Positions 43,569-49,434 of a DNA stretch of 51,264 nucleotides are shown one piece after another. Source of the DNA: Acidimicrobiia bacterium (GTDB lineage: Bacteria > Actinomycetota > Acidimicrobiia > Spongiisociales > ZC4RG35); the NCBI GenBank assembly GCA_009377435.1, contig WHUC01000003.1, positions 1-51,264 of the forward strand. The letters are read 5' to 3'. The number at the start of each line of letters is the position of its first letter. The stretch's first letter is position 1. Position numbers and translations under genes: made by a program. The notes below the pieces were generated by a model that saw only the letters and a list, made by a program, of their open reading frames with translations, searched no databases and was not told the DNA's origin.

Positions 43569-44624
43569 TCAGGAGGTGTGTTCCCCGGCCCGCATCTCGT
43601 GCTGGAGACGCCGCGACTCCTCGAGGACACGACGGAAGAGATCGGCGGCGTGCTCGGGCTCGAGCCCGTGATGGATCGCCTCCTTGCGGATGAGATCCAA
43701 CAGCTCCTCCTCCCGATCGGGTATCTGCACCGGCATTCCCCGGCGGAACTTGACCTCCCCGATCTGGAGGGCAAGCTGCTGGCGACGTCCCAGGAGTCGG
43801 ACGATCTGTCGGTCGATCTGATCGATGTTGGTCCTCATCCGATGGATCCCCAGTGCGGTCATGAGATCGGCGAACGGCACGAGTCCGAGCTGTTTGTCGG
43901 AGGACCGCGCGATCTCCGGTGTTGGATGGACCTCCACGATCAGCCCATCGGCACCCACGCCCTGGGCGGCGAGAGCGAGGGGGCGAACCCGCCCGGCGCC
44001 ACCGGCGGCATGGGAGGGGTCGACGATGATCGGGAGATGGGTGAGCTCGCGCAGCGAGGGTACCGACGTGATGTCCAACATGTCGGTGCGACCCGTGCCG
44101 AAGGTGCGGATGCCACGCTCGACGAGGATGACCTGATCATTGCCCTCGGCAAGGACGTATTCGGCCGACCACAGCCACTCGTCGAGGGTCGCCGAGGGTC
44201 CGCGACGGATCAGAACCGGTTTGCCGAGACGTCCCAGCACCCGGAGCAACTCGAAATCCTGCATGTTGGCCGATGCCACCTCGAGGGCATCGACCTTTTC
44301 GGCGACCTCCTCGGCGTGGGCCGCCTCGGTGACCTGGGTGACGGTGGGCAACCCAACACGTTTGCCGGCGGCGGCGAGCATATCGAGGGCCTCCGAGCCC
44401 AGGCCACGGAACTCGTACGGCGACGACGTCGGCTTGTAGGCATTTCCCCGCAGCAGCGACGCCCCGAACTCGACGGCGGCATCGGCGACGGTATTGATCT
44501 GGTCCTCGGACTCGATGGCGCACGGCCCGGCGATCACGGTAAAGGGATCGTGACCGATGCGAACCGAACCGATCGTGACGACGGTGGCCCCTCTATCGCC
44601 GTGGCGTTGTGCCTTACGTTCCAT
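43569..44624 (-). CDS. aroF: 3-deoxy-7-phosphoheptulonate synthase fused to C-terminal chorismate mutase
   Basis: VIAGPCAIESEDQ, RGNAYKPTSSPYEFRGLG, DPSHAAGG; C-terminal MRTNIDQIDRQIVRLLGRRQQLALQIGEVKF. Confidence 0.92.
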   Translation of the reverse strand: MERKAQRHGDRGATVVTIGSVRIGHDPFTVIAGPCAIESEDQINTVADAAVEFGASLLRGNAYKPTSSPYEFRGLGSEALDMLAAAGKRVGLPTVTQVTEAAHAEEVAEKVDALEVASANMQDFELLRVLGRLGKPVLIRRGPSATLDEWLWSAEYVLAEGNDQVILVERGIRTFGTGRTDMLDITSVPSLRELTHLPIIVDPSHAAGGAGRVRPLALAAQGVGADGLIVEVHPTPEIARSSDKQLGLVPFADLMTALGIHRMRTNIDQIDRQIVRLLGRRQQLALQIGEVKFRRGMPVQIPDREEELLDLIRKEAIHHGLEPEHAADLFRRVLEESRRLQHEMRAGEHTS

Positions 44625-44644
44625 GATTTCTCCTCGATGGACGA

Positions 44645-44725
44645 GGCCCGGGACGTGGAACGACCCGGGCCTGGCCCGGGTCGACGTGGTTGGTGTGGTT
44701 GTCGTTTCAGCCCATCACGTCGACC
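44645..44725 (-). promoter_or_regulatory. Putative attenuator: mutually exclusive stem-loops between leader peptide and DAHP synthase
   Basis: 11-bp stem 44661-44671/44673-44683; competing 10-bp stem 44716-44725/44679-44688; alternative GGCCCGGG/CCCGGGCC pairing using 44645-44652. Confidence 0.55.
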
Positions 44726-44774
44726 GGGGCCCGGCCCCGGTAAAGACGAAATAGGCGTAGAAACGATCGGACAT
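44715..44774 (-). CDS. Putative aromatic-rich leader peptide (19 aa) upstream of the DAHP synthase gene
   Basis: MSDRFYAYFVFTGAGPRST*, with F-Y-A-Y-F-V-F; too short for the supplied ORF track. Confidence 0.65.
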   Translation of the reverse strand: MSDRFYAYFVFTGAGPRST

Positions 44775-44881
44775 GTCCCATCACCTTAGCGCCCCATCGA
44801 GCGGATGGCTACGGAGGGTGGCGAGCGTCGACGACACCGGCATCGACCGCCTCACGGGGCCACGCCACCGCAGGACCCGTA

Positions 44882-47566: not shown

Positions 47567-47793
47567 CGGTCCTCATCTTCGAGAGCTCGAACATCCTCGG
47601 TCGTTATCACCGTGCCGAGGTGGACGACGGGTAGACCGGTGCGTTCGCTCCGGGTCACCTCGGCCGTCTGGCCCTGACCCAGGGCGCGCCGCAGGAGATC
47701 GGCAATGGTATCGCTCAAACTCCGCGACGTATCCCGGGCAATCGCCCGAGCTTGTCGGTGGAGGTCATTGGGAAGATCGATGGTGGTCCGCAT
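47563..47793 (-). CDS. vapB: Ribbon-helix-helix antitoxin
   Basis: [38 protein letters not shown]. Confidence 0.85.
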
Positions 47794-47805
47794 CTCATCA
47801 TCGTA

Positions 47806-47825
47806 GCATCATCACATCATGATGC
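47806..47825. promoter_or_regulatory. Putative VapBC autoregulatory operator
   Basis: GCATCAT-CACATC-ATGATGC inverted repeat 13 bp upstream of the vapB start. Confidence 0.45.
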
Positions 47826-47892
47826 GGATCCTGGGTGGGAGGAGCAAGACCACGCGCCGTTGGATCGGCTCATCCGTTATCATGAGAGTCCG

Positions 47893-47984
47893 CGCTCGCC
47901 GAGGGGCGTTGCGACCGCACAGTCTTCTGCAAGCGGCCAGGCTCGGCTGGAGCGCACGCTGAGAGATCAGCAACGGCGCCCGCT
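47893..47984 (+). ncRNA. SAH riboswitch
   Basis: GCCGAGGGGCGTTGCGACCG...CGGCCAGGCTCGGC...CAACGGCGCCC; GCCGAG/CTCGGC stem and GGGCG..TTGC/GCAACGGCGCCC pairing; directly upstream of ahcY. Confidence 0.88.
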
Positions 47985-48006
47985 CGCTACACGAGGAGCA
48001 ACCGCC

Positions 48007-49434
48007 ATGAGCACCACCACTCCCACGAAGACCGCCGACCACGCCGTGCGTGACATCGGGCTGGCCCACCTGGGTCGGAAGCGAATCCGGATGGCCGAGG
48101 AGGAGATGCCGGGTCTCATGCAGATCCGGGACCGATTTGCCGCCGACAAGCCACTCGAGGGTGTCCGTCTCACCGGGTCCCTCCACATGACCAAGGAGAC
48201 CGCCGTCCTCATCGAGACCCTGGTCACCCTGGGCGCCTCGGTGCGGTGGGCATCGTGCAACATCTTCTCCACCCAGGACGACGCCGCCGCCGCCATCGCC
48301 GCTGCCGGTGTCCCCGTCTTCGCCTGGAAGGGCGAGACCCTCGAGGAGTACTGGCAGTGCACTCTCGACGCTCTCACCCACCCCGACATGAAGGGTCCCC
48401 AACTCGTCGTCGACGACGGGGGCGATGCCACCCTCCTCATCCACAAGGGCGTGGAGATGGAAGAGGGTGATGATTGGGTCGACACCCCCGGGGCCAACCA
48501 CGAGGAGCAGGTGATCAAGGACCTCCTCCGGGGCACCCGCGACGACCGCCCCGGCTTCTGGACCCAGGTCGCCACCGACTGGCGGGGTGTCTCCGAGGAG
48601 ACCACAACCGGTGTCCACCGTCTCTACCAACTCGCCGAGGCCAAAAAGCTCCTGGTCCCCGCCATCAACGTCAACGACTCTGTCACCAAGTCGAAGTTCG
48701 ACAACCTCTATGGCTGCCGGGAGTCCCTCGCCGACGGTATCAAGAGGGCGACCGATCTGATGATCGCCGGAAAGGTCGCCGTCGTGTGCGGCTATGGCGA
48801 CGTCGGCAAGGGCTCCGCCCAGAGTCTCCGTGGGTTCGGCGCCCGGGTCATCGTCACCGAGATCGACCCCATCAACGCCCTCCAGGCGGCGATGGAGGGT
48901 TTCGAGGTGACCACCCTTGAGGAGGCCCTCCCCGACGGCGACATCTTCATCACCACCACGGGGAACCGCGACATCATCACACTCGAGCACATGCGGGAGA
49001 TGGCCGACAATGCCCTCGTGGCCAACATCGGCCATTTCGACAACGAGATCCAGGTGTCCCGTCTCAACGAGGCCGCCGACATCGAGAAGGACCGGATCAA
49101 GGACGGTGTCGACCGCTACACCTTCCCCGACGGCACCTCGCTGTATGTCCTGGCCGAGGGTCGTCTCGTCAACCTCGGTGTCGCCCACGGTCATCCGTCG
49201 TTCGTGATGTCGAACTCGTTCTCCAACCAGACCCTGGCCCAGATCGAGCTGTGGGACAACAGGGACGACTACGAAAAGACGGTGTACCGGCTCCCCAAGA
49301 AGCTCGACGAGGAGGTGGCCCGACTCCATCTGGAGCAGATCGGTGTCAAGCTGACCACCCTCACCCCCGACCAGGCCGAATATATCGGTGTCCCCGTGGA
49401 AGGGCCGTACAAACCGGACCACTACCGGTACTGA
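48007..49434 (+). CDS. ahcY: Adenosylhomocysteinase
   Basis: [40 protein letters not shown] terminus KPDHYRY. Confidence 0.97.

Follow-up and report, generated by a model that had tools for sequence, protein, structure and literature searches.

The aroF gene of Corynebacterium glutamicum encodes a DAHP synthase of a different type from the enzyme considered here and carries no fused chorismate mutase. As described in the published accounts (Neshat et al. 2014, via PMC11802643; PMC4046766), aroF is preceded by aroR, a leader with a Phe-Tyr-Phe sequence. According to these accounts, ribosome stalling under Phe limitation raises transcription of aroF (PMC11802643, PMC4046766), and Tyr availability was reported to have no effect (PMC11802643). 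The leader peptides of the trp, leu, and ilv genes of Streptomyces lividans are leaderless and have a TAnnnT -10 sequence (PMC8079986). In Actinobacteria, Seliverstov et al. 2005 (PMC1262725) described attenuators for Trp, Cys, and Leu genes together with T-boxes of ileS, and conserved structures for other amino acid pathways were not found (PMC1262725).

Here we analyzed by computation an element ahead of a DAHP synthase-chorismate mutase (DAHPS-CM) gene in an Acidimicrobiia bacterium; DAHP synthase catalyzes the first step in the synthesis of aromatic amino acids. The window, by which we mean the whole stretch of DNA that was analyzed, comprised 51,264 nucleotides of contig WHUC01000003.1. 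The element very probably attenuates transcription by the ribosome-mediated mechanism of the trp/phe type.

Gene organization and predicted promoter of the locus

The whole feature, consisting of the leader, the hairpins, and DAHPS-CM, was on the minus strand of the window, a strand that the preliminary description (see below) had left unstated:

43569 to 44624, minus strand: DAHPS-CM gene, 351 aa
44630 to 44635, minus strand: GAGGAG, Shine-Dalgarno sequence of the DAHPS-CM gene
44715 to 44774, minus strand: leader ORF, translated as MSDRFYAYFVFTGAGPRST*, 90 nt 5' of the DAHPS-CM gene
44742 to 44762, minus strand: sensor codons F5 Y6 A7 Y8 F9 V10 F11 (TTC TAC GCC TAT TTC GTC TTT)
44783 to 44788, minus strand: -10 hexamer TAAGGT, ending 8 nt ahead of the leader ATG
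44806 to 44811, minus strand: weak -35-like hexamer TAGCCA, 17 nt ahead of the -10 hexamer, with a 4/6 match to TTGACA

A preliminary description of this DNA had placed the leader ahead of a DAHPS-CM gene, and both the translation and the domain matches agreed with this assignment. The product of 44624-43569 matched the DAHP_synth_1 and CM_2 domains, that is, a class I DAHP synthase and a type II chorismate mutase, and scored over the cut-off of the NCBIfam model for bifunctional DAHPS/chorismate mutase.

The position of the -10 hexamer predicts a transcription start at about 44774-44777, which would give a leaderless mRNA for the leader, and the leader is probably translated from this mRNA without a Shine-Dalgarno sequence. 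The preliminary description had made its reading depend on conservation of the leader and stems and on a start that did not lie downstream of 44715. The sole conserved promoter signal places the start at about 44774-44777, which speaks against a start downstream of 44715, and both leader and stems were kept across the order. A MarR-type gene (45355-44882) lay on the same strand, 107 nt upstream of the leader, and the main transcription might in principle read in from a promoter of this gene, leaving an unregulated leader with incidental hairpins. The promoter next to the leader and each of the four pairings described below were, however, kept over many genera, and we regard the chance that the leader is unregulated as negligible.

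Elsewhere in the window, an SAH riboswitch (RF01057, 54.9 bits) was found at 47895-47988 on the plus strand, in the 5' part of an ORF listed at 47752-49434, the product of which was similar to S-adenosylhomocysteine hydrolase. The true start of this ORF is probably downstream of the riboswitch.

Conservation and distribution in the order

DAHPS-CM orthologs were collected at E <= 1e-90 and were present in 76 of the 138 genomes of the order (Acidimicrobiia). The leaders in the 77 orthologous loci were picked by their aromatic content, and the promoter was ignored in this choice. TANNNT was located 5-12 nt ahead of an in-frame aromatic leader start in 75 of the 77 loci, compared with 7.1 expected from shuffled upstream sequence, the counts being uncorrected for phylogeny. 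Among the nearer relatives, the leader consensus was about [FY]x[YF]FxFTG(P/L)RPG. Under the rules used, the leader was not recognizable in two loci (L015 and L026). Leader decay was apparent in both: L015 had ACG at the start position, and the aromatic residues were gone from L026. The element was weak and degenerate in genus g22; in one locus of this genus (L139, genome G050), the leader MTVAWFSQDYFFGPSGSK was found ahead of a DAHP synthase of another type.

A covariance model built on two pairings of the element (A:B and C:D, defined below) gave a single match in the window's genome, which was the element described here; in the order, 98 of 137 genomes had a match. Weak model matches across the phylum were mostly ordinary terminators, and only those with an aromatic leader preceding a DAHP synthase gene were retained. 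No such leader was found at the 20 loci of the DAHPS paralog lacking chorismate mutase in the window's genome and 19 relatives. At gathering scores, none of the cis-regulatory families of Rfam (T-box, Phe, Trp, and other leaders) was matched, and leader or T-box families were likewise missing among matches with E values up to 5. In sister genera of family f1 (L046-L057), a gene for a CM-PDT-DAHPS fusion of about 700 aa had a different aromatic leader (...FFGFVYFGA*), the stop codon of which was inside the inverted repeat CGGCGCCTAGCGCCG; a U-tract terminator was not seen there.

RNA segments and competing hairpins

Five pairing segments, named A to E in the order of transcription, were assigned between the sensor codons and the DAHPS-CM gene:

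44733 to 44741, minus strand: segment A, ACCGGGGCC, partner of B
44716 to 44732, minus strand: segment B, GGGCCCCGGTCGACGTG, leader end and part of the stop codon, partner of A or C
44673 to 44688, minus strand: segment C, CACGTCGACCCGGGCC, 5' arm of the terminator, partner of B or D
44661 to 44671, minus strand: segment D, GGCCCGGGTCG, 3' arm of the terminator, partner of C or E
44661 to 44683, minus strand: terminator-type hairpin, CGACCCGGGC CAG GCCCGGGTCG; in the sister genome (L002), the same sequence had -20.6 kcal/mol
44653 to 44660, minus strand: U-poor tail, TTCCACGT, 3 T of 8
44644 to 44655, minus strand: segment E, CGTCCCGGGCCT, 3' of the terminator, partner of D

The 201-nt region folded with z = -3.85, and none of 200 dinucleotide shuffles was equally stable. 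In the equilibrium model without translation, the predicted fold of the window was the terminator. Four pairings had been proposed for this region from the letters alone, and all four were present; the one over the Shine-Dalgarno sequence is taken up below. The strong stem CGACCCGGGCC-A-GGCCCGGGUCG (44683-44661) was present, but the 11 bp claimed for it need an impossible 1-nt loop, so that the stem has about 10 bp with the loop CAG. The pairing GGUCGACGUG:CACGUCGACC was confirmed at 44725-44716 and 44688-44679 and corresponds to the antiterminator B:C, which was conserved and co-evolving. The third, GGCCCGGG:CCCGGGCC (44671-44664 and 44652-44645), was also present and conserved; it is not an alternative antiterminator but rather a fifth element, D:E.

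The pairing strength of each sequence's own segments was compared with that of segments dealt out among species, using 49 distinct C:D sequences. The final tests used corrected positions for L001, L002, L035, L036, and L079, in which the automatic hairpin caller had taken D:E in place of C:D. Co-evolution z values were -5.2 for A:B, -12.2 for B:C, -8.7 for C:D, and -10.2 for D:E; for D:E, non-overlapping segments gave z = -8.1, and a thinned set agreed. The decoy pairings B:E and C:E were null in the 49 sequences and likewise in the non-overlapping and thinned sets, and D was null against sequence within the gene, 5' of the leader, or lying between the leader and C. These tests ignore phylogeny, yet the null decoys have the same phylogeny. 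The covariation across relatives proposed earlier as a check supported these four pairings. In an alignment of 37 sequences, four pairs of C:D had changed on both sides and 99.1% of cells were paired, and the outermost pair of B:C (columns 26:80) was C-G in 14 sequences and U-A in 13, a compensatory change. The antiterminator B:C and the terminator C:D, both co-evolving, are mutually exclusive via the shared segment C. A GCGC-rich motif a few nucleotides past segment B (alignment A1, columns 33-38) was widely conserved.

Sensor codons and target genes

The sensing part was defined as the portion of the leader that ends with the final F or Y ahead of segment A, and its composition was compared among leaders of three kinds of target gene. 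Besides the DAHPS-CM leaders, these came from the following loci:

L129 to L136, L138, and L141 to L143: second copies of the element ahead of pheS in family f2, nearly Phe-only
L194 to L206, L210, and L218: plain DAHP synthase loci with Phe+Tyr+Trp leaders in other families of the phylum

In DAHPS-CM leaders (n = 73), the sensing part contained 204 F, 123 Y, and 1 W, with Trp in only 1 of 73. The plain DAHPS leaders of the other families (n = 12 distinct) contained 34 F, 16 Y, and 13 W, and W was present in all 12; here 14 of 30 loci had given a candidate by the rule applied, repeated peptides were counted once, and L198 was weak. The pheS leaders of family f2 (n = 12) were nearly restricted to Phe, with 23 F, 1 Y, and 1 W. 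For the contrast in codons, Fisher p values were about 1e-13 (W) and 7e-10 (Y), although kinship was ignored and close relatives were counted separately. Among the upstream regions of pheS in 30 genomes of the order, including the window's, such a leader was found in G152 only. The last aromatic codon ahead of segment A was TTT in 59 of the 73 DAHPS-CM leaders and in the window (44742-44744), where TTT was rare for Phe (4 of the 52 Phe codons counted over five genes).

Variation of the aromatic codons with the target gene is expected of a tRNA-charging sensor and not of an arrest peptide. The proposal in the preliminary description that charging of Phe- and Tyr-tRNA is the signal is supported by this variation. 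A nascent-chain arrest peptide, in which the conserved FTG(P/L)RPG end rather than tRNA charging would stall the ribosome, would agree with the strong amino acid conservation that the nearer relatives show beyond the sensor codons. This conserved end, however, encodes A and B, whose complementarity has to be preserved, and the aromatic residues shifted with the target gene; we consider an arrest peptide highly improbable. With the aromatic codons following the gene downstream, the leaders form a natural codon-substitution series for tRNA-charging sensors.

Effect of ribosome position on the predicted fold

The ribosome was modeled as a mask extending 16 nt beyond the first base of the P-site codon. 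In this masking model, the terminator of the window had a probability of 0.00 while any of the codons F5 to F11 occupied the A site. The probability rose to 0.71 at T12 and 0.82 at G13, and it was 0.98-1.00 for positions A14 through the stop. Across 49 sequences, C was paired upstream before D was made with a probability of 0.75 when the last aromatic codon was in the A site and of 0.24 three codons further on; the corresponding values in the shuffled control were 0.55 and 0.46. In the model, the position of the ribosome at the sensor codons decides which hairpin forms, with the switch at the last aromatic codon. For roughly one-third of the relatives, however, the terminator was preferred at every ribosome position in the equilibrium model, so that kinetics would have to favor B:C there.

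In the mechanism that we infer, RNA polymerase would initiate close to the leader ATG, and the leader would be translated by a ribosome without a Shine-Dalgarno sequence. Under a shortage of charged tRNA-Phe or tRNA-Tyr, this ribosome would stall on the F and Y codons and cover A, leaving B free to pair with C, which would block C:D and allow the gene to be transcribed; in the longer transcript, E would capture D. When Phe and Tyr are ample, the ribosome would proceed into B, C:D would form, and transcription would stop in vivo before the gene. Ribosome-mediated control of the pheL/trpL type, as put forward earlier, is supported by the conserved leader and stems, the promoter position, and the sensor codons.

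Probable transcription termination and alternative outputs

The preliminary description had observed that no U-tract follows the strong stem and had considered translational or Rho-dependent control. The tail in the window did contain only 3 T, but at least 4 T were present in the 8 nt past the C:D stem in 66 of the 73 loci in which both a leader and a terminator were called, which disfavors either as the ancestral output; the tail after the terminator in the sister genome was TTTTGCGT. The U-rich tail after C:D in most relatives suggests that the ancestral output was likely transcription termination. With few U in its tail, the window's terminator may be weaker than those of relatives.

In translational attenuation, the alternative hairpins would hide or expose the DAHPS-CM Shine-Dalgarno sequence and transcription would not end. 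Apart from the U-poor tail, this would fit the predicted accessibility of the Shine-Dalgarno sequence in the window, which with D free to take E was 0.68 versus 0.33 otherwise in one calculation and 0.67 versus 0.41 in another, and the slight rise on freeing D among relatives (0.555 versus 0.466, in 39 of 49). In the window, the tail of E, CCUCG, also pairs with CGAGG over GAGGAG, as had been described; its conservation across relatives, however, was no better than chance. E and the Shine-Dalgarno region did not co-evolve (z = -0.8; -1.6 in the thinned set), and accessibility with C:D formed was 0.466 compared with 0.477 for shuffled sequences (Wilcoxon p = 0.68). Together with the U-rich tails of most relatives, these results make translational attenuation unlikely. 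A hairpin sequestering the Shine-Dalgarno sequence was dropped as a conserved element, the signal not being above shuffles.

Rho-dependent control, with leader translation hiding or exposing a Rho site and C:D serving as a mere pause or protective hairpin, would account for a window stem without a good U-tract and for the sister genera whose trifunctional gene has a leader without a U-tailed terminator hairpin. Because C:D and its U-rich tail were conserved and compensated throughout the order, we judge Rho-dependent control very unlikely.

A more extensive proposal is that of a five-segment switch, in which capture of D by E in antiterminated transcripts would lock the ON fold or couple it to translation, and relatives would be retuned by the sensor codons alone (Phe for pheS; Phe+Tyr for DAHPS-CM; Phe+Tyr+Trp for plain DAHPS). 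We offer this combination tentatively, as one that is possible but somewhat doubtful.

Comparison with known systems

The element is a new attenuator family in Acidimicrobiia with an extra segment, E. We know of no counterpart to this fifth pairing segment. The open literature on attenuators of Acidimicrobiia or on the leader MSDRFYAYFVFTGAGPRST gave nothing closer than the systems compared here. The leaders of S. lividans and the attenuators of PMC1262725 are also actinobacterial, and many are leaderless with a TAnnnT -10, as is predicted here, but they respond to other amino acids. The pheL-pheA and pheST systems of Escherichia coli share a leader with Phe codons and a competing antiterminator and terminator, and pheS is likewise a target in family f2 of the order. 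They are, however, gammaproteobacterial, their targets are chorismate mutase-prephenate dehydratase and PheST rather than DAHP synthase, and their leaders rely on Phe codons, whereas the leader here carries Tyr as well.

The closest precedent is aroR-aroF of C. glutamicum, by a likeness that is functional. As the published accounts describe it, aroR-aroF likewise has an aromatic leader peptide ahead of a DAHP synthase gene in an actinobacterium, but an equivalent of segment E is absent from that description (PMC11802643, PMC4046766). The element extends attenuation of DAHP synthase to an order of little-studied actinobacteria and adds to the attenuator a fifth pairing segment, the role of which is directly testable.
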